Origin: Copromyces sp. CBS 386.78
Taxonomy: Eukaryota > Ascomycota > Sordariomycetes > Sordariales > Sordariaceae
DNA length: 64,000 nt
NCBI GenBank assembly: GCA_030685235.1
Contig: MU839201.1
Span: 1-64,000, forward strand
Reading direction: 5' to 3'
The notes under the pieces: model-generated
The model's input: only the letters and a program-made list of their open reading frames with translations
Database searches by the model: none
What the model was told of the DNA's origin: nothing
Program-made: the position numbers and the translations under genes
Shown here: positions 25,333 through 57,200 of the stretch, piece after piece
Numbering within the stretch: position 1 is the first letter of the stretch
How the letters are laid out: each line of letters starts with the position of its first letter

Positions 25333-25539
25333 TAATACCGTTGATAGGGTATTTGAAAGGATGTAACAATATTGTCTTGATTGAAAGGTATAATGGTTGA
25401 TGTTCCGGGAAGAAAGGTCTAGCTTCCAGCCAGCCATCTGCACGCGGAAAGTATGCTGTGCAGCGAGCCAGAGCACGGTCCACTCTGTGGCCCGTGCTCT
25501 GGCGACTGGGCATGGCACCAGAGCCTCCATGGCAGCCCA
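25333..25539 (+). repeat. 5' LTR of element LTR-X
   Basis: 207-bp direct repeat of 33492-33698. Starts TAATACCGTT (probably TGATACC before RIP) and ends GGCAGCCCA. Contains a 31-bp palindrome at 25470-25500 (arms AGAGCACGG and CCCGTGCTCT). The nine bases after the LTR (TGGGCTGTC at 25547-25555) are complementary to its 3' end GGCAGCCCA, with one mismatch. GC-rich and little mutated compared with the right copy. Confidence 0.85.
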
Positions 25540-25569: not shown

Positions 25570-25632
25570 GGCATTTGATGGGGCGGCACCAGCCTTTGGA
25601 TAGAGCGGCCCCGATCCTTATTTGGGCCCCAA
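25570..25632 (+). repeat. Left TIR of the MULE
   Basis: Inverted copy of 29930-29991 with three or four substitutions in about 63 bp. Confidence 0.9.
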
Positions 25633-26095
25633 TATTATAGGTCTTGGCGTGAAACTTTATAGTAATTTATTCTTTATATAGTAATTTCCAAAGTGTTATA
25701 CATATATTCAAACCTCCTGCGTACGGACTGTAAATACTAGCTAAAATATTACCAAATGTGCCCCTTTTTTGAAAAAATATTGCTCTATTATATTATTATT
25801 AGAAATAATCCTAAAATTACTTCCAATCGCCTCCAACCGTCTTTATAATTTTAAATTCCTATTTTGATTATTATTAGCCTCCGACGGGGGGTGCTATAGG
25901 GACGCTTATGGTATAGCGGTATATAAGGACGCTTATATATTTCTATTAGTATTGTAGATTGTAGAGACCCCTGTTCCAATTCTATTTGTGACTATTTGTG
26001 ATTATTTTTCTCTATTTCTATTTATTCCTATCTTTATATTACCCTCCTTTTACCCTCCTATTACCTCTTTATTTCCTTAATACTTAAAATTTAGT

Positions 26096-26290
26096 TCGGT
26101 TAGCTATTGGCGCGGGGGGGGTCCTGGTTGGGGGAGGAGATGTAGGTACGCTATAAGATATATTATTTTTCGGGTCGTTGTAAACGGGTATTCTGCTACT
26201 ACGGCGGGGTATTTATGAGGTAATTCGACTAGGGTACGTAGAATAAGCCGTGTTAAATTCCTTTTTTTTTGGTGTTTTAGTCTTTTTATA
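26096..26290. repeat. Block shared with the 668-bp MULE-like element
   Basis: Same orientation as 23765-23960: GCGCGGGGGGGGTCCT, then TAGGTACGC, TACTACGGC, TAAGCCGT(A/G)TTAAATTCC in the same order and spacing. This copy keeps more G and C. It lies between the TIR and the transposase relic. Confidence 0.8.
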
Positions 26291-26499
26291 TATATATATA
26301 TATATTGTGAGGCTTGGTATGGTATTTTAATATTAGCTCTGAGTAAGCCTGTTTATACGGCTATTATATATAACCTTAGGAGTTGGTAAGATTAATTTAG
26401 AATTAATTGTTCTAGTTCGTTTAGTAGTTGCTCTCTTAATTTTGCGTATAATTGCCTATTTAATAGGTAAGTTCGTCTCTGGTATAATTATTTTAATAT

Positions 26500-29000
26500 A
26501 ATTTAATACTTACTCTTGCTTTTATATTGGTTCTAGTACTATTTCTGGCTTTGGGGAGGAATAAAATTCTTATTCTTTATTAGAGAGATATTTATATTAT
26601 AGGGAAGGTATTGGCTTTAGAGGGGGGGTAGGCTTTAGAGAGAGTATGAAATATAAATCTAATTTTAAATTAAAGCTAATAGGCGTTAGAAAGAGTTTCC
26701 CTTCTATAGAAGCGTAGTTAATATATTTCTTTAGAATAGGCTTTGAATCTAGGGATAGATATAGTGTAGGCGGGAGTTGTAGAGATAGTATATTTATCTT
26801 TGATTTTATATTTATCCCCAAATTTAATTTTAAGTCGAATAATAATTGTATTTCTAATTTAAGAGACGAGATTACTAGTATAGCTATTTAAATAAGGTCG
26901 AATATATTTTTTATATCGTTATTAAATTCCTCAATATTATTATTAAATATAATTATATAGATATAATTAAGCGTTTCTTTATTACTTTTAAATATCGCTT
27001 CCGAAGTATTATTATAATTTAAAATATTAGAATTAACCGGCTATTATACGCGTTTACGCTTTATAGCCTTAACAGAATTAAAAACGAATTTATTAATATT
27101 ATTTATTTTATTATAAAATTTATACCGTTATATATTTAATTATAGTCGAAGGAAGTTATTATAATTATTCTATTAAATAGGTTTAACCTTTTTACTATTT
27201 CTTTTATTAGAGGTACCCTTCTTTAATATTAGTATAATTACTTGCTTTTTAAACGTTTTAGGGGTTTTAGGAGGTTTTATAGGTAGAACGTACTTATTAG
27301 GAATAGTTTTAGTAAAGTTCTTTGCACTTTTCTTTTTAATAATATAGGGATTTTTAAATCGAAGGTAGAAATTGTTAAAGTTAAGTAGTACCTTGAAATG
27401 TTAGCGAGGGTGGACGTGTAAAAGTTTTCATACTTTGTTCGAAATTAGTTATTGGAATATAGTATAATAATAGGGTAGTTTAAATTGTATAGGAATATTA
27501 TATTTTTTATTATAAGGAGGAATGGGAGGGTTTAATTATTATACTATTAGTTAGTATTGTTTTGTTTGTCGATATTCGCGGTTGATTATTTCTAATATAG
27601 TATATATAATTTGTAACGGTAATTTCTTTAGATAAGGCTAGGTAATAAATTTATATCGGTTACGGGTTTAATTCGAAGTTAATTTTTAGACGAAGGTTAA
27701 CTTCTATTTATTAATTATTTCGAGGATGGTTTTAACTAGTTTATAGATATTGTTATTGCTGTTTAGAAAATAATTTTTAATGTTAAGGTTGTTGGATTCG
27801 GTTGGAGAGGTAATTTTAATATTAAAGTTTTTGTATTTTTTAATATAGTAGTATGCTTATTAATTTTTGATAGGGAGTTAGTTCTTTTAAATATAACGAA
27901 GAAATAACTTTTAGACTTTAAATTACCTCTTTATATCTTCCTAAGTAGTAAAGAATTTACTCTTTATTTTATTGTATATTATAAGTTTAAATTGCTTTAT
28001 AACGCTATGAGGATTATTGGTAATTGTAGTATTAGTAGTAGTAGTAGTAGTAGTAATTCTAGTACCTATAGAAATATAGAAATTATAGTCCTAATTATTA
28101 AAGGGGATAGGAGTTACTTATTTATTAATATTTTCTTCGTTATTAAAATTATTACTAATATTTTCTTCGTCGTCTTTATTATTATTTTTACCCTTATCGT
28201 TAGCCGCCTTTACCCTCTTATTTTTCTTCTATTTAAATTTAGTGTTATAGAGAACGTTCTTAATAATATAAAATAAATAGAATTATTATTAGGTATTAGG
28301 GAAAGAATTTACTAGAAATTGTTTTATTTCTTTATTTTTATTAATAATAATAACAGTTAGTTTAGGTATATTATATTATTATTATATTTATTTAATAGTA
28401 TTAATAAGAAAGTCGAAGCTTACTTACGTTTCGTTATTAATAATATTAAAGACGTAATTAAAAATAGTACTAATATTAGTAATATTAGAAATTTAATAAA
28501 AAGGATAATTAAAACGGTTAGTATTATAAGTATTATTAACAATTATAATTTTATAGAACCGTTTAATTATATTAATATATTATAGGAAGGTAAAAATAAT
28601 ATTAAAAAGTTTGGTTTTATTATTTGGATTTATTTTTTTAATATAATCGATTTTATTATTATTAAATACCTTTAGAAGTATATTAGTAAGGGTATAACTA
28701 TTAAGGTTATATCGACGAAGGGTAGCGCGTACGTTATAAATATTTCGTTTTATATATACCGATTCTATATATTCGTTTCGTATAATAGAAGTAATTTTAC
28801 GAGCCTATATAGCGCTTAATTTTAATATATTCTTAATAGTTTTAAAGATTTCCATTATTATTTTATAATATTAAGGGTAGGTAGAAGGGTGGGACGATTG
28901 AAGGTAATTATATTTTTAATACTTAGGGTTATTATAGAGGTAGAAATATTAGAGTCCGTTTTCTTTTTTAACGAGAGTTTTCTATTTGTAATTATATTTC
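26500..29000 (-). pseudogene. MULE transposase relic
   Basis: Read on the minus strand. The N-terminal part (about 28660-28840) gives EIFKTIKNILKLS, QARKITSIIRNEY, VYIKRNIYNVRATLRRY: the pre-catalytic region of fungal Hop/MULE transposases, in which a 'TPRQI...R..DIYN...R' pattern precedes the DDE domain. Next (about 28480-28570) comes RFYKIIIVNNTYNTNRFNYP, matching the first catalytic motif 'LLLDCTYNTNRFNMP' with its Asp changed to Asn. Downstream parts of the DDE domain (26500-28400) are too decayed to place the second Asp and the Glu. Stops are TAA/TAG. Function when alive: cut-and-paste transposition with 8-9-bp target duplication, consistent with the flanks. Confidence 0.75.
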
Positions 29001-29352
29001 TATAATACTATTTTTCGAACCGTCGCCTTTAATTTGCTCGGTTGATTAAGGCAGTTATAAATAAAGTAATACTATATATATTCGCTAGCTAGAACTTTAG
29101 GCTTTGTACTACAGCTATTCCAACGGTTGATTATAAAACTATAGTATTTTGCCTAATTATTAACCCCCTTATAAAATTCTTAAATTATAGCAGTAGGGAA
29201 TATAGTATTAGGAGGTAGATTAATAATTAAGTCTCTATAATCTATAATTATACTTTCTTCGTTTAATTTTAGTTCGGACTTTCGGTTAGGATTAGGTTAC
29301 GTAGAAAGAAAAGAGTTTAGAGATTTAAAGGAATCGCTATCGCTATTATTAT

Positions 29353-29388
29353 CGTATTCGTATTCGTATTCGTATTCGTATTCGTATT
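29353..29388. repeat. (CGTATT)6 microsatellite
   Basis: Six perfect hexamers inside the MULE, near its right end. Confidence 0.95.
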
Positions 29389-29929
29389 AATAAGGGAGTT
29401 ATATATCATTACCGTTAATGAATATATTAAGATCGTTATTAGAAAGACTATTTATAAAGCCTTCCTATACTTCTTGCGCAAAAAGGTCGGTATTACTATC
29501 CGAATCGCTATTTTCGATATAAGTAAGGTCGATAGGTGTATTTAGCGTATTTAGCGCCTAGGGCGGTATTTTAAAATTCGTATATACGATGCGCGCAATA
29601 TTATATAGAGCTTTAAAAAGTTAATAGATCGATTTAATAACATTTGCGATTAATATTTACGTACGTACGAATAATTCTGGCCGGTTTTAGTGTTTATAGC
29701 TAATTGGGTTGTAATAAAGGATTTGAAAGAAGGTTAGGTTAATAGAAAAGGTACTGTATATTCGAAATGGCCAAGTTTAAAGATAGGGGTTGTACGTAGG
29801 CTAGTAAATGGGGGATCTACTGGTTGGCTAGGCTTGGTACTATCTTTTACGAAAGGTTCGTGTATTATGACGGTCCTATTGAAATAAATCGCTCGAAAAT
29901 TATATATATACGTATAACCTTAACCCGAT

Positions 29930-29991
29930 TGGAGCCCAAATAAGGATTGGGGCCGTTCTATCCAAAGGCTGGTGCCGCCCCATCAAATGCC
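29930..29991 (-). repeat. Right TIR of the MULE
   Basis: Inverted copy of 25570-25632. Confidence 0.9.
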
Positions 29992-29999
29992 AATCTAAG
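29992..29999. repeat. Target site duplication AATCTAAG (right, MULE)
   Basis: Exact match to 25562-25569. Confidence 0.85.
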
Positions 30000-30013
30000 C
30001 TATAATACAGGGT

Positions 30014-30238
30014 ATGGCCAACGATACTAGGAATCTAGGGATTCCGGTATCAAATGCCGGCTTACAAGAAGAACAGCCATTGTCCTCAATGGTCCTAGAC
30101 GACCAAGTCTCCTCCGAGATCTTCCAGGTCTCCTCCGACAATGAACAAGTCTTCTCCGAGATCTTCCAGGTCTCCTCCGACAACAACCAGGTTTCCTCCG
30201 AAGTATCTGTCCGTTCGGGGCGCTTCGGGATATTATAG
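30014..30238 (+). CDS. Intact N-terminus of the LTR-X protein, with heptad repeats
   Basis: A 74-codon open frame that starts MANDTRNLGIPVSNAG, 44 bp downstream of the 5' LTR once the MULE is removed. Codons about 30-65 form five tandem heptads of the type QVSS(E/D)xx (QVSSEIF, QVSSDNE, QVFSEIF, QVSSDNN, QVSSEVS), encoded by a 42-bp DNA tandem at 30104-30193; this could be a short coiled coil or linker. The first stop is a TAG at 30236-30238; the same frame then continues with TAA/TAG/TGA interruptions to 31346. I do not recognise the protein. Position suggests a Gag-like product. The opposite strand is also open here (29995-30312, SEETWKI-type repeats), a by-product of the tandem repeat. Confidence 0.5.
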   Translation: MANDTRNLGIPVSNAGLQEEQPLSSMVLDDQVSSEIFQVSSDNEQVFSEIFQVSSDNNQVSSEVSVRSGRFGIL

Positions 30239-31346
30239 AATTCGTTAAAAGAAATCGTCGATGTCCAGTAAGGTCTGAAAAGCCAGCTAGTAACTAGGAA
30301 AGGCCATTCCATACCAAGGAAGCGAAGGCATAGTACCTAGAAAGGCTAATCCGTATTAAGAGACGAAGGTAAGCAGGCTATTTAATTTTAACTAAAAGAG
30401 AGGTATTCGAAAGAGAGAGGTACTTAAAAAGTGCTAAATCCGCTGAGAAAGGTGATTCTATAGATAAATAGAAAAAACGAGAAAAGGGGGCAAAATAGGG
30501 AGCTATAAAGAGCTTTGATTTCCGGGGAGAGCCGACGAATTATTAAAAAAAGGAAAAGAGAAATAACGGGACTAAGCGGAAACTTAGGAAGCATTACTAC
30601 GAATTTAATAATACTAGTACTTAGTATTGTTATTAAGAGAATCGCTAAAGTATTAGAAAGCCGAAGAGATCCGTTAAATTACTAAGAAAAGAAAGGCAAA
30701 AGTAACGGGGATAAGCGGACAAAACTAAAAGTATAAAATATTAGCGATATAAATATTTTAGTATTATTATTAAGAGAACCGCTTAGTTTACGGCAATAGC
30801 TATGGCTACCCGCATACGAAGAAAGGGAGTAATAACCTCGTTGCTTAGTAATAAAAGGGAAATTAACTAAGGAAGCTATTACTAACCTTTAATTATGTAA
30901 GACCGCTAGGAAGTAAAGCAGTAATTATTATATAGATAAATTTAATACTAGTAGTAATACTATACTATTATTATAATAATTATAGAAAGTAGGGCGGGGC
31001 TCAAAAATTTATTAAATAAAGGAAGTTTGAAGTATTTAGAAGCTTCTTATTCATAGTATAGTAGAAGCGCTAAATTCGCCGTAAAGGGAGGGATTGTTAT
31101 CGGGTACCCAAATTCGCCGCGCACCGGGAGTGGTATTAAGAGCTTTCAAGGTTACTTAAATTCGCCTTGAGAGAAGAGCAGTCGCGTACCTAAGTTCAGC
31201 AGCTAATAGAGCTGATAAATAATAAATGGTTACCTAAATTCGCTGTTCGAAAAGGAAAATTACTATTGGTTACCCAAATTCGCCGATAACAGGGAAAAAG
31301 AAAATAGTCGAGATTACTTAAATTCGTCTCGATAATAAAGCGGTCG
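30239..31346 (+). pseudogene. Continuation of the LTR-X frame up to the small LTR element
   Basis: From 30239 the frame of the preceding ORF runs without an obvious frameshift to 31346. It is broken by TAA/TAG at Gln-like positions and one TGA that could be a former Trp. Visible blocks are LKEIVDV, LKSQLVTRKGHSIPRKRRH, LRDEGKQAI, LKERYSKERGT and INRKNEKRGQNREL. The product would be strongly basic (Arg/Lys/Gln-rich), fitting a nucleic-acid-binding protein, but no zinc knuckle or known domain is seen. The last 240 bases overlap hairpins 1-6 of the array, where the conserved loop is read as TQIR in some units and YLSS or YPNS in others. It resumes after the small LTR element at 32624 and stays readable to about 33050, then with slips to about 33480. 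Confidence 0.4.
31343..31346. repeat. Target site duplication GTCG (left, small LTR element)
   Basis: GTCG here and ATCG at 32620-32623, the latter differing by one G-to-A change. Removing the element restores a hairpin of the CGGTCGC type with its loop at 32626. Confidence 0.65.
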
Positions 31347-31488
31347 TGGAAGGTGCTATGGTGCACTGTGCTGCGGGGTATTTAAGGTCGTTTCTTCTGG
31401 TTGTTAGTCTTGGTCTTCTTTCTTCTGAATCAACCACCCTCTCCGTTCCTTTTACCGAACCTCATTGGCATTCAACGAACGAGTTGCA
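31347..31488 (+). repeat. 5' LTR of the small LTR element
   Basis: 142-bp direct repeat of 32478-32619. Followed by TTGGCGATCTTCACC, the position of a primer binding site, which I cannot match to a tRNA. Confidence 0.9.
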
Positions 31489-31527
31489 TTGGCGATCTTC
31501 ACCTGGGAGGAGGAGGAGGAGGTGTAG

Positions 31528-31755
31528 TGGTCCGTTGGCATCAATTTCGGAATTCTATCAATCTTTTTCATTCCATCGCCCGCCTTTCTCTCGACGGCGA
31601 AATGCCTCCTATCGTCGAAATCCATCAACGTTATCTACCTCGATACTAAAAAGAGAAATATTCCCATCCTGGGCGTATTTGGTTCAACCATCAAAACAAA
31701 AGTTTGTATGGGGAAATTATCCCTATCAGCCAACACATTGCAAATTGTAAAATAG
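31528..31755 (+). CDS. Open frame in the small LTR element, possibly a captured exon
   Basis: A 75-codon stretch without an ATG, open between TAG at 31525 and TAG at 31753. It reads WSVGINFGILSIFF, then AKCLLSSKSINVIYLDTKKR and NIPILGVFGSTIKTKVCMGK. The mix of hydrophobic and charged segments with Cys residues looks protein-like, and base usage is not RIP-biased. Overlapping frames on the same strand (31346-31750, 31401-31649) run partly through the LTR and are less convincing. No family recognised. It could be part of a host gene fragment taken up by the element or of a decayed gag. Confidence 0.3.
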   Translation, partial: WSVGINFGILSIFFIPSPAFLSTAKCLLSSKSINVIYLDTKKRNIPILGVFGSTIKTKVCMGKLSLSANTLQIVK

Positions 31756-32017
31756 ATCCGGCGTCGGACCTCCTTTACCCCCTATAACCCCCCTACACTA
31801 AGCTCTTGGCCGTACCTCCCCTGTACACGGCGTACATGTGCTTACATGAGGTCTTATCAACTTCCTAATCCGGTATAGTAATAATTTATTCTGTTGGTTT
31901 CTATCTTCACAGGTTGGACTATGAAGATAGAGCGTTTTATTAGTTAACAGGGTACAACGCGTCAGTCGCGTACTGCAAATAGCGCTTTGTACCCTCCTCT
32001 ACCCCTATCAAAAACAG

Positions 32018-32251
32018 ATGGAAAAGTTGTTGGTTGAACCAAACGCGCCCCCTACCTCTCCAAAGAAACCACTACCATCGCCATCGGAAAAAGCATCATT
32101 TCCAAACCAAATCCATCTATCATCAAAAGCCGCCGCTATACCATCTTCCCAAAAAACCAAGAAGAACGAAAACCGATCGATCAAGTCGAAACCTGCGAAG
32201 TATACCTCGAAAACACATAGTGGGACGACGGAAGTTGCTAGAAGAGCCTGA
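32018..32251 (+). CDS. Pro/Ser/Lys-rich open frame in the small LTR element
   Basis: 77 codons from an ATG, starting MEKLLVEPNAPPTSPKKPLP. Rich in Pro, Ser and Lys, low complexity and basic, with no domain. A plausible 3' splice site (TTCACAG, 31907-31913) lies upstream, so it may be part of a spliced fragment. A second frame on the same strand (32034-32261) is equally open. Coding status uncertain. Confidence 0.3.
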   Translation: MEKLLVEPNAPPTSPKKPLPSPSEKASFPNQIHLSSKAAAIPSSQKTKKNENRSIKSKPAKYTSKTHSGTTEVARRA

Positions 32252-32477
32252 GCGGCGCTAGGAGGACCAATGGGCTAGACTTTTGTAAACCATTGTATAG
32301 GGTTGGGGTGGGCTGCTTTATTGAGGTTGTCTACGGTGATTCTATTGTTATTGTTGTTGTTATTATTTAGAAGATTCGGACGATGATATTGGGGGGTAGA
32401 TGATAATAATAATACTTTGGGATTGGGAGATATTTGGTGGCCGTTCGGTGCCGGCCTTGGGATAGGGGGGAATATTG

Positions 32478-32619
32478 TGGAAGGTGCAATGGTGCACTGT
32501 GCTGCGGGGTATTTAAGGTCGTTTCTTCTGGTTGTTAGTCTTGGTCTTCTTTCTTCTGAATCAACCACCCTCTCCGTTCCTTTTACCGAACCTCATTGGC
32601 ACTCAACGAACGAGTTGCA
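32478..32619 (+). repeat. 3' LTR of the small LTR element
   Basis: 142-bp direct repeat of 31347-31488, ending GAGTTGCA, followed by the duplicated target ATCG. Confidence 0.9.
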
Positions 32620-32623
32620 ATCG

Positions 32624-33491
32624 CATACCTAAATTCGGCGGCCGAAGAAGTAATAAGAATTGGAATTGGCGAATACTTAAATTTATCGCCAATAGGAGAA
32701 ACTAATAGTATTATTAAGAGCTCTTAAAGTTACTTAAATTTCCTTTAAAAGAAGAGTAGTCGTATACCTAAGTTCGGTAGCCGAAGAGATAATGAGGGAG
32801 AATATAAGAGTAATTAGTAATCCTAATTATCGTAATCGAATACTTAAATTCGTTGAAGTCGTTTAATTAGGATTAAGGCTAGTAAATACCTAAATTCGTC
32901 GCTAATAGGAGAAACTATTATGAGAGCTTTCGAAATTACCTAAATTCACTTCGAGAGAAGAGCGGTCGCGTACCTAAGTTCGGCGGCCGAAGAAATAGAG
33001 GTAATAATGAAAGTCGCTATTAGTTACCTAAGTTCGCCAACAACGGGGAAATAGTAAAAGCTTCGTAGGAAATAGTTACCCAAATTCGCCGTCGTACAAA
33101 TAAAGCTATCGTAAAGGATATGGTAATAAGAATTGTTGAAAGTACTTAAATTCGTCTCGAAAATAGGCGGTCGCGTACCCAAATTCGGCGGCCGAGGAGG
33201 TAATAATCCTAATTATCGCGGTCGAATACCTAAGTTCGTCGAAGTCGCTAAATTTAGATTGAGGCTAGCGAGTACCTAAGTTCGTCGCTAGCCGGTAGAG
33301 AAATTAATAGTATTATTGACCTAATATTAAAGGCCTTAGACGTAATCCTAGCGAAAGGGACGTTATTATAGGATACCCCGCGACGAAGGTTAGTTTATCG
33401 AGAAGCTATCGCGCACGCGACGTCGCTAGCGATTGGCGATAATAGTATAGTTTAGTTCGAAGTCGAAGTAATTTTAGTTATAGCTACTATT
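32624..33491 (+). pseudogene. LTR-X frame resumed after the small LTR element
   Basis: If the small element and one target copy are removed, the upstream frame continues as AVAYLNSAAEEVIRIG, then GEYLNLSPIGE, ASKYLNSSLIGE, MRAFEIT, FERRAVAYLSSAAEEIEV and ISYLSSPTTGK. The loop 12-mer of the hairpins is read in three codon registers along this frame: YLSS, TQ(I/V)R, and (I/V)PKF (e.g. at 32764, 33175, 33226). From about 33050 stops and probable slips increase. The last 200 bases before the 3' LTR (33296-33491) hold no further hairpin of the series. Function unknown. Confidence 0.35.
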
Positions 33492-33698
33492 TAATACCGT
33501 TAATAGGGTATTTGAAAGGATGTGACAATATTGTCTTAATTAAAAGGTATAGTGGTTAATATTCCGGGAAGAAAGGTCTGGCTTCCAGCCAGCCATCTGT
33601 ACGCGGAAAGTATGTTGTGTAGCGAGCTAGAGCACGGGCTATAGAGTGGCTAGTGCACTAGCGACTGGGCATGGCACTAGAGCCTCCATGGCAGCCCA
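33492..33698 (+). repeat. 3' LTR of element LTR-X
   Basis: 207-bp direct repeat of 25333-25539. The 31-bp palindrome recurs at 33629-33659 but its tip reads AGA where the left copy reads TCT, as if inverted. This copy has more C-to-T and G-to-A changes than the left one. Confidence 0.85.
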
Positions 33699-54295: not shown

Positions 54296-57200
54296 ACCCC
54301 CTAAACTTTATAATTTATATTAATTGTAGTATTATTAAGCGTAGTGTCGATTTCGTCTATATAATAAACTCCTTATCCTTTAAATTCCCCCGTTCCCCTA
54401 TACCCCCTTCTTCCCCGGCGCCCGAATTCTAAGCCCTCATCCGGGTATTAATTTCTAACCACGCTTTTAACCTTCTTCCCGGCCGGTAAATCCTCTTTAT
54501 TTTTACGCTTACTTCCCCTCTTTTTTATTAATTACGCTAATTAGCGCTATCCGTTGCATTTTTTTTATTTATTATAATTTAAAGTTTACTAATTATATTT
54601 ATAATACCCCGTCTTTTAATATAATTACGTTTTATACGTTCTTCGCGGAATATATTTATTATATTAATATTAAGAATAAGTTTCCTCCCGTAATTTTCCT
54701 TTCGTTTTTCTTTCTAATATTCTTTAAAACGCCAGTAAATAGAGCGCTATTTATTCTATTTATAAAATATATATTAAATATTCCGTTAGGTTATTATAAT
54801 AAATATAATGCCGTTTAAATTATAGTTATTATTTTATCTTACTCTTAGAACGATTTTAGTCCCTTAATTCGTCGTTTTTATAGTATTTGTATTAATTTTT
54901 TTAAGGATATACGTAAGCGTTTAATTGCGGACGGTCTTTCGTACAACCTTAATATCCTTTTTTACTACCGGAATATAAAGGTTGAGGATTATTAGTATAA
55001 AGGATATTACGAAATATTTTTAACCGATTGTCCTACCACTCCCATTTTCGGCTTTAATAGAGGAAATACTAGTATTAGTTCCCCAATAATAATTAATAGC
55101 CTTATTAGTCCCCTTCCGGCTAATGAGGATTGGGTTTAATAGTACTATAAGGTTATTAGGAATTAGGAGTTAATATTCAATATATTCTACGAATTTTTCG
55201 CTTACGAAGAACGTTAATTAGTTATTTCGGTATTACTTTCGTAGTTAGGTAATTATTATAGTTAGCGTAATTTAATTCCTCTTCTTTTTATTTCTCCCGT
55301 ATTCTTTTATTCTAGTATTATAATTAAATATATTTACGAATACCGTACGAATTTATTATATTATTCTCCTTCTAATTCGATTACTAAATAATATTCGTTT
55401 AGCTTATTAAATTATAATATTTATAAAAGGATTTTCTCAATTTGGGTTCCGTTGTCCAAATAAATTTGGAGCTTTTCTTTCGTCTACGGCTAATCGGTTA
55501 TTATTATTTAATAGTCGGTTATCCGTAAATAGTTTAGGATAATATATATAAAGGTTTTTTTATTTATGTTATAAGAATAGATTAGCATTATAATATCCGG
55601 AACTTTCTTTTAGAAGAGGAAGGACCGGAGGCCTATAACTTCCGTCTTTATTTAAGTAAGAAGGGAAATCTTCGTTTTAAATAATAAGTACTATTCGTCG
55701 TCGTTTTCCGATTATTAAGTTTTTTTCTTTTTTTATTTCGTACCAATTATATATTATTTTATAATATTATTATTAAATTTCGGGTTAAAGTCGGCGATAG
55801 TAAATTCATACTATTAGTTTAATTTAATTATTGCCGCCGCTAATTAATAATTATAGCGCAATATTTATTCTCTTATTTTTACTTCTTCTAATTACCTTTT
55901 ATAATTTATAGTAATTAATTTTAATATTTATAATAGGGGCGGCGGCGCCCCTATTACCAGGGGCGGACCTACTATAATTATTAAAAAATTTTCTATTAAT
56001 ATTTATTTTTCAATTTATTTAGTTTTAACAGTATTACTTTTTAGTCTATTGGCGGGTAGCCGACTTTTTATTCTCCTTATTTAAATATAGTTAATTATTT
56101 AAATTATAATCCTTCGGACGAATTTTATTCAATTCGTACGGGTAAGCCTTTTTTCGAAGGTTCTAACCCGTTTATTAAAGTAGAAGTCGAATAGTAGACA
56201 AAAAGTTTCTATTTCTAGGTTCTTTATTAATATAGTTTTATACGCCCCGGTAATAATTTTCAAATATTTAATTTAGTATTTAATTAACCTAATCGCTATT
56301 TTTCATAGTTTATTATAAATTTCGGTCGATTAATAGAAAATTAATATTCTATATACAATTACGTTTTGAATATATTTAATATAAATTTCCTTCGTTCGTA
56401 TAAAAAAATAACTTTAAATTTTTGCCGTTAATTATATTAATATATTCGTTTATATAGTTATTTTCTTTTTTATTACCTCTATATATATTTAGTAATTAAA
56501 TTTCCAATTTAGTTAAACCCTAAGGAATTTAATCGATTCCGTTAATTTAAATATAATTCTCCTAATTTAGAGAATTTCCGTTTTTAATTCCTTCGTTTAC
56601 GTAAAATATATAAATTCTATTTTATTTATTTCGAATTTTATCCCTCTTTTAATTATTTAACCCGAATAAATATCCTATATTATTTAGAACGTCCGATAAT
56701 TTTCTTTAATAATTTTAATTATTGCGATAATATTAATATTATTAGCGAAGCCGATAATAATTACGTTTTAAATAATAGCCAACTTATAGTATAATAAGGT
56801 AATAAAGAGAATAAAAAGAATTAATAAAAAGGGGGAACTTTATAATACACCTACTATAATATTATAAGGTTAGGAAATTTCGTCGTCGAAGAAAAGAGAA
56901 CTTTTTCTTCCGGTAATAAAATTATTAATTTATTAGAGGATTTATTTTAAGAATTATATTTCTTATAGCGTATATAAGAATTACCTATAATTAATTCTAT
57001 TAAATACGCCCTTTAAATTAAGGAGTATAAAAGACATTACGGCTTTAAATTTCTATATTATATAAATTACGTTAATAATTATTCGGACGGCGAATTCGGT
57101 TAAACGGCCTATTTAATTACTTATTTAACTTTCCGGAAGGAAATTATATTCTTCTACTACTTATATTAACCTCTTTATTATAAAGGCTTTAAAGATTTTT

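Follow-up and report, generated by a model that had tools for sequence, protein, structure and literature searches.

A tandem array of hairpins with a constant loop in the 5′ leader of related LTR retrotransposons of Copromyces, with a possible role in splice-donor display

The hairpin array and its host element

We analysed a stretch of 64,000 nucleotides from Copromyces sp. CBS 386.78 (assembly GCA_030685235.1, contig MU839201.1, positions 1 to 64,000), which is called the window in the following. Between positions 31095 and 33293 it carries, next to the long terminal repeat (LTR) of a retrotransposon, 20 hairpins that share one 13-nt loop and whose stems differ from unit to unit yet remain complementary. 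A first-pass annotation made from the letters alone had described about 20 hairpins with a 13-nt loop at 31101..33295, and 20 array units are indeed found when up to two mismatches to the motif TACYYAARTTCG are allowed. At this tolerance its count of 20 occurrences of the 12-mer holds; exact occurrences number 16, every one on the plus strand, from 31105 to 33284 (shuffled sequences: mean 0.25, maximum 2). Of the interval given, 31346-32619 is an unrelated insertion. At least seven units with stems of 6-9 bp had been reported, and we find eight with at least six contiguous pairs, G.T counted (31153, 31271, 31315, 32674, 32731, 32971, 33176 and 33273). A covariance model built from relatives, described below, places all 20 units in one orientation on the minus strand. 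Starting at the 5′ LTR the array reads as follows, with model scores in bits:

33263..33293, minus: hairpin nearest the 5′ LTR, stem GGCTAGCGA/TCGCTAGCC; 35.8
33217..33247, minus: hairpin unit; 29.4
33166..33196, minus: hairpin unit of the CGGCCGC/GCGACCG type; 35.9
33133..33163, minus: hairpin unit; 23.7
33067..33097, minus: hairpin unit, degraded; 17.7
33015..33045, minus: hairpin unit; 30.7
32961..32991, minus: hairpin unit of the CGGCCGC/GCGACCG type; 38.1, the top score in the window
32927..32957, minus: hairpin unit; 20.7
32877..32907, minus: hairpin unit; 27
32831..32861, minus: hairpin unit; 19.9
32755..32785, minus: hairpin unit, degraded; 19.6
32721..32751, minus: hairpin unit, loop heavily degraded, six contiguous pairs; 12.6 (E 0.45), weak alone and assigned by its position in the array
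32664..32694, minus: hairpin unit, loop degraded, eight contiguous pairs; 17.3
32616..32646, minus: hairpin unit bordering the insertion; 34.4
31346..32619, no strand: unrelated insertion splitting the array (1.27 kb), a small LTR-like element with 143-bp direct repeats (31346-31488 and 32477-32619, 98.6% identical)
31305..31335, minus: hairpin unit, stem TCGAGA/TCTCGA; 28
31261..31291, minus: hairpin unit; 31.8
31221..31251, minus: hairpin unit; 27.6
31177..31207, minus: hairpin unit; 23.5
31143..31173, minus: hairpin unit, stem CTTTCAAGG/CCTTGAGAG; 30.4
31095..31125, minus: hairpin unit most distant from the 5′ LTR; 28.6

The assignment of the array to an LTR element, already made in the first-pass annotation, is borne out, with the array adjoining an LTR that has a partner 88.9% identical over 207 bp. 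The host is best explained as a non-autonomous element related to a chromodomain LTR retrotransposon of the Ty3/gypsy type. Its copies and relatives, designated C66, C35 and so on, are element copies within one 49.8-Mb assembly, and many of them have been mutated by repeat-induced point mutation (RIP). The window copy has these further parts:

33492..33698, minus: 5′ LTR in the sense orientation, given as its matching part without the lost outer end; 88.9% identical over 207 bp to 25333-25539
33476..33491, minus: candidate primer-binding-site region adjoining the 5′ LTR, recognised by its sequence TAGTAGCTATAACT, a RIPed form of TGGTAGCTGCAACTG in C66
25333..25568, minus: first part of the 3′ LTR, repeated in the 5′ LTR and in relatives
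29989..30052, minus: remainder of the 3′ LTR past a nested insertion; 89% identical to positions 244-307 of the C35 LTR

The window copy is thus nested, one LTR lacking its outer end and the other, the 3′ LTR, being split by a DNA-transposon-like insertion of about 4.4 kb (25570-29991) with 64-bp inverted ends that are 95% identical. The complete copies C35 and C25 have direct terminal repeats of 307 bp at 91.5% and 292 bp at 84.6% identity and are flanked, as judged by eye, by 5-bp target-site duplications (GCCTC and ATTAT, respectively); no clear polypurine tract was seen in either. The longest stop-to-stop pieces measure 105 aa in C35, 74 aa in C25 and 94 aa in the window copy.

The sense strand follows from C66, the least mutated relative, whose LTRs are 100% identical over 247 bp and which has long open frames. 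These frames lie on the strand opposite to the one that had been read in the first pass, which was the antisense strand. The array therefore sits in the 5′ leader, between the putative primer-binding site and the first frame, with the minus strand of the window as its functional strand; this leader position is well supported. The comparison with less RIP-mutated copies proposed in the first-pass annotation thus fixed both strand and position, and a location in the 3′ untranslated region before a polypurine tract is ruled out by the strand of C66. From the LTR end the C66 leader has TGGTAGCTGCAACTG 2 nt on, a putative intron of 453 nt with six hairpins starting at 129 nt, then 18 nt and the ATG of the first frame. 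The sense loop reads CGAAYTTRGGTAN, and the loops of C66 are CGAATTCAGGTAC (three times), CGACTCAAGGTAC, CGACCAAGGTAC and CGAACTTGGGTAC.

The pol frame of C66 comprises 1123 aa, with an RVT_1 match at C66:149429-149896. Proteins matching this frame are annotated with PF00078, PF17917, PF17921, PF24626 and PF00385, the named ones among the top matches being fungal, and relatives occur in fungi such as Chaetomium globosum, Gaeumannomyces, Fusarium and Parastagonospora; among viral contigs none were found. By these matches C66 is predicted to be an autonomous relative with reverse transcriptase, RNase H, integrase and chromodomain. Stop-free frames of 1669 and 2513 aa surround the reverse transcriptase in C66:146601-155168 and C159:240-8893, while most of the 150 reverse transcriptase matches listed in the assembly contain stops. 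Together with its identical LTRs this suggests that C66 has been active recently. The frames in gag position gave no Pfam family at the cut-off; in one of them (L041 1-1509, minus) two zinc-finger-like motifs can be seen by eye (C-x2-C-x12-H-x3/4-C), unlike the usual retroviral knuckle.

In the 49.8-Mb assembly the motif TACYYAARTTCG occurs at 137 places, compared with 37 for the reversed pattern. A model search covering 36 loci, including 14 fetched for a lone motif, gave matches with E < 0.1 in the leaders of related LTR elements or, in C98, beside a short LTR-end match, the exceptions being two matches of about 19.5 bits among the lone-motif loci. Within these loci the clustering lends no support to a free mobile hairpin module, one of the roles suggested in the first pass. 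Five older copies (C17, C134, C56, C16 and C8) align with the C66 leader and retain five hairpins (in C17 five by motif scan and four by model search); they were missed by a query with the first frame of C66, and their kinship rests on the leader and the frame start. Copies without coding capacity reach 15-21 units, compared with 5-6 in the C66/C17 lineage: C226 has 15 in the part of the copy that was analysed, and C25, the window copy and C35 have 18-21. The exception is C43, of the C35 type, with 5.

No hairpins of the array kind were found on either strand of the C67 leader (L049). This relative has a similar LTR and a different leader, in which CTATCG...CGATAG surrounds CGAACTTACCTAG (L049 450-1000), possibly a remodelled hairpin. 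Matches in C82 were rejected as units, being loose motif matches with inconsistent stems. A motif pair in IMG/VR belongs to a short repeat present three times in a viral contig of 111 kb (L077) and was taken as chance. A coding repeat with YLSS-like frames was also discarded, since the units in C35 are not spaced by multiples of 3 and no frame there exceeds 105 aa. Rfam gave no match in the window at gathering score and two chance-level matches in stretch L032.

Stem pairing, covariation and strand asymmetry

For the pairing test 60 of 71 motif rows were used (C35 21, window 20, C25 19), leaving out two rows within the insertion and nine with three mismatches, at least one of which (C25 4643) resembles a real degraded unit. 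In the first eight stem positions 375 of 480 cells pair, compared with a mean of 239 (standard deviation, sd, 12) after the right arms had been re-dealt within arrays, and none of 2000 shuffles equalled this number. A second set of 42 units from C66 (6), C226 (15) and C35 (21), one row of which is displaced by one column and has a 12-nt loop, served for the analysis of covariation and for the covariance model. Here 78.2% of the cells pair (shuffled 52.1, sd 2.2), both-sided changes occur in 87 cells (shuffled 28.0, sd 5.6) and the covariation score is 0.672 (shuffled 0.218, sd 0.028; at most 0.228 in a slid control). Two further measures discriminate poorly: a both-sided change in seven of seven pairs was matched by 264 of 500 shuffles, and the 25 pair types (shuffled 21.1) were reached in 11 of 500. 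Hairpins and covariation are thus well supported, and the claim that a nucleic-acid structure has been selected agrees with both data sets, in which stem pairing exceeds that of shuffled arms.

The covariance model, likewise proposed in the first-pass annotation, contains no window sequence, but many of its units come from the same element type. All 20 units of the window are recovered on the minus strand, with E < 0.02 for 19 of them and E 0.45 for one, and three further weak matches fall outside the array. One of these three, isolated at 54845-54880 on the minus strand (17.4 bits, E 0.016), scores above the two weakest array units.

At stem positions 1-3 of the 60 units the only departures from Watson-Crick pairing are A.C and G.T, the transitions expected from RIP, which fits the earlier view of the non-pairing units as RIP-damaged. 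Because RIP meets the same context in either arm of a palindrome, C-to-T changes paired with G-to-A changes between RIPed copies are no clean compensation. The solid covariation is found on comparing one hairpin with another, where transversions occur as well. This matters for the explanation that needs no selected function, in which a single hairpin repeat multiplied through tandem and segmental duplications and then drifted. Parts of the array are in fact plainly duplicated blocks. The covariation score, three times the shuffled mean, already strains this explanation, as do the 24 different arm pairs in which all six inner positions pair (G.U allowed), although some of them are RIP variants of each other. 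Further, elements with and without coding capacity have kept the hairpins and their constant loop, while their LTRs have just short stretches in common. We regard an array without function as most improbable.

Selection could also have acted on DNA, with the palindromes as sites for a DNA-binding protein, for example in a promoter or silencing region, and the RNA structure incidental. The arms are inverted repeats in DNA as well, and in old copies G.U and A.C mismatches are about balanced: A.C prevails in C35, C25 and the window, G.U in C226 and in copies of the C17 type (C17 itself uncounted). The conserved centre is, however, not palindromic and the arms vary freely, the opposite of a usual palindromic DNA site, and all 20 units point in the same direction. 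In each of two young copies the 42 stem positions contain 2 G.U on the sense strand, 0 A.C and 5 other mismatches, counts that come from near-identical hairpins and are not independent. On the sense strand the linkers contain 5-15% G and 21-36% C and the hairpins 20-28% G. RIP acts on both strands and would not be expected to leave this asymmetry. The linkers being G-poor on one strand only and the array lying in the 5′ leader, a role in RNA is favoured, and binding sites in DNA appear very unlikely.

Predicted leader introns and candidate donors in the loops

Nine leaders of the coding lineage were examined, those of C66, C159, C39 and C91 and of the five older copies. The C91 leader equals that of C66 minus exactly GTACGTGAG...CGTACGTAG. 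The missing interval has GT-AG borders (GTACGT...CGTAG), its donor lies at the foot of hairpin 1 and the 18-nt segment before the ATG is retained, so that the copy has the form of an exact retrocopy of spliced RNA and the interval is well supported as a predicted intron. C39 matches C66 through CGAATTCAG^ in the loop of hairpin 5 (the caret marking the junction) and continues with a 23-nt segment to the same ATG. C17 matches its relatives through CGAACTTGG^ in the loop of hairpin 6, followed by 15 nt up to the frame start, and was probably joined at this loop donor. Both joins fall at RG^GTA. Three of the nine leaders therefore look like retrocopies of RNA spliced at three different donors, and the other six keep the intron sequence. 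The foot donor AARGTACGTRAR is aligned in all seven of seven leaders.

Of the 26 GT dinucleotides in the 453-nt C66 intron six belong to an RGGTA, one in each loop and none elsewhere (shuffled intron: mean 0.39, maximum 3 in 1000 shuffles). Likewise RGGTA lies within loops in 13 of 14 cases in C226, 17 of 19 in C35, 11 of 11 in C25 and 9 of 10 in the longer part of the window array; of the seven in C159, six lie in loops and the other is the foot donor. As the units were collected by patterns containing RGGTA, its presence in the loops, including the 5′ splice-site core RG^GTA of all six loops in C66 and all six in C159, is to some extent a product of the selection; its near absence outside them owes nothing to it. 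Because RGGTA occurs nowhere else in the C66 intron, the loop appears to display a 5′ splice site, and we consider it likely that the loop donors are real.

The reading to which we incline somewhat is that hairpins displaying 5′ splice sites balance spliced mRNA against unspliced genome, and that derivatives without coding capacity have expanded them. The array would be an RNA element of the 5′ leader, encoded on the minus strand of the window and located, in coding relatives, inside a facultative intron before the first frame, which has the gag position. Each loop would hold the core CGA....RG^GTAN; with intron positions +5 and +6 falling in the stem, the U1 small nuclear RNA would reach the loop core only. 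Several weak donors controlled by structure would then compete for a single acceptor just upstream of the first frame. The spliced RNA, freed of three of the four ATGs of the C66 leader (these lie inside the intron), could serve as mRNA, and the unspliced RNA, retaining the hairpins, as genome. The coding-less derivatives would keep and multiply the hairpins probably because recruitment of U1 protects the full-length transcript from early 3′-end formation, or else because the hairpins attract Gag. U1 binding, control by structure, the division into mRNA and genome and the reason for the expansion are what we infer from these arrangements. More tentative, and in our view rather doubtful, is the extended proposal that the multivalent array recruits the U1 small nuclear ribonucleoprotein repeatedly beside the 5′ LTR, thereby setting splicing and protecting the genome, and was amplified for this by coding-less parasites.

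Several observations weigh against the display of splice sites. The C39 join is exact on the donor side and putative on the acceptor side, the copies compared including no unspliced one of exactly its subtype, and the C17 leader would also be explained by a single substitution together with a deletion lying slightly farther along. For the leaders of C35, C226, C25 and the window any acceptor would be hypothetical, and the arrays of the C35 type are poor in strong canonical donors: GTACGT, GTAAGT, GTATGT and GTGAGT are absent from the scanned leader stretches of C35, C226 and the window, C25 having one GTACGT. At +5 most loop donors have no G, and they could be weak or cryptic sites. Conservation of CGA, with which the loop begins, is as strong as that of GGTA and would be left unexplained by a splice site alone, and the antisense strand of the C66 intron contains four RGGTA as well, which we attribute to the palindrome GGTACC. 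The six inner positions are all paired (G.U allowed) in just 31 of 103 units, many units being RIPed, and the near balance of G.U and A.C mismatches in old copies is what neutral decay might give. Folding, also suggested in the first pass, was applied to the C66 intron: when its minimum energy is sought globally, hairpins 2 and 3 alone form with high probability, and 1, 5 and 6 are displaced by long-range pairs. Ten hairpins folded singly gave z scores from 0.11 to -3.56, most of them modestly better than shuffles.

Some of these points would be met by a packaging signal. Retroviral packaging signals (psi) are leader hairpins that lie downstream of the splice donor and are present only in unspliced RNA. 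In a multivalent psi-like signal the loop would bind Gag, the position in the intron would restrict packaging to unspliced RNA, parasites would have expanded the array and the loop joins would reflect accidental use of GGTA. The array does lie in the leader downstream of the first donor and, as in psi, is lost with the interval missing in C91; several stems with one common loop suit a target for a protein; the strong conservation of CGA would be accounted for; the intron is retained in most leaders of the coding lineage; and the array is biggest in the copies without long frames, C43 excepted. Against packaging stands C91, which has no hairpin and was still reverse transcribed and inserted. 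The hairpins are therefore not essential for copying or insertion, in contrast to what psi would lead one to expect, and their number far exceeds that of psi hairpins. The restriction of RGGTA to the loops of the C66 intron is not explained either, and we consider a packaging signal unlikely, though clearly less so than sites in DNA. Dimerisation by kissing loops through GGTACC was discarded as a general explanation, because the last loop base varies (C, A, T). Compared with these alternatives we retain the display of splice donors as our preferred reading.

Comparison with known systems and further features

Plant LTR retrotransposons carry tandem repeats in their untranslated regions, mostly the 3′ untranslated region, and these are sources of satellites. 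The present repeats are likewise in a non-coding part of an LTR element, but they form a structured unit with a constant loop and covarying stems and are located in the 5′ leader. We found no comparable hairpin array in the open-access literature searched.

In human immunodeficiency virus type 1 (HIV-1) the major splice donor lies in a leader hairpin whose structure partly suppresses splicing, according to the cited part of that report (PMC4974535). The arrangement described there resembles ours in having a 5′ splice site, in our case a candidate one, within a hairpin of the untranslated leader. There is, however, one hairpin there and 5-21 here, the core lies here in a constant 13-nt loop on varying stems, and hosts and elements are unrelated. 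A second parallel concerns U1, which at the leader donor of HIV-1 and foamy viruses silences the 5′ poly(A) site, as the cited portion of the source describes (PMC3694450). Common to that system and ours are a donor near the 5′ LTR and a structure that governs, or here would govern, the access of U1. The same portion describes no array of donors, and for our elements U1 binding and poly(A) control are what we infer. By analogy, this control could serve as a model for the retention of donors by copies without genes. The barley element BARE1 uses separate RNA pools and a facultative GT-AG intron with a CAG^GTAT donor and has the parasitic partner BARE2, again following the cited part of the publication (PMC3735527). 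Separate RNA pools, a facultative intron and a parasitic partner are features that our elements would share. In that part the BARE1 intron lies at the gag-pr border and gives a Gag-only RNA, BARE2 being unspliced, whereas our predicted intron precedes the first frame and belongs to the leader, and a hairpin array is not described for BARE1 in that part.

For LTR retrotransposons it is still an open question in what way a single transcript can act as mRNA and also as genome. A splice-donor hairpin, single in HIV-1, would here be repeated 5 to 21 times in tandem, its stems varying freely, in partners with and without coding capacity in one genome. With this natural series, which includes the apparent retrocopies of spliced RNA, simple reporters would be enough to test the question.

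Three further features of the region were noted. A second repeat array, with units of about 21 bp around AGGTCTCCTCCGA, lies near the 3′ LTR of the host element at 30102-30201, and similar units are present in C35 and C67. The repeats of the insertion at 31346-32619 begin near TGGAAGG and end with GTTGCA, and its longest listed frame, at the edge, has 134 aa. The stretch surrounding 30651-30924 is repeated within several relatives.

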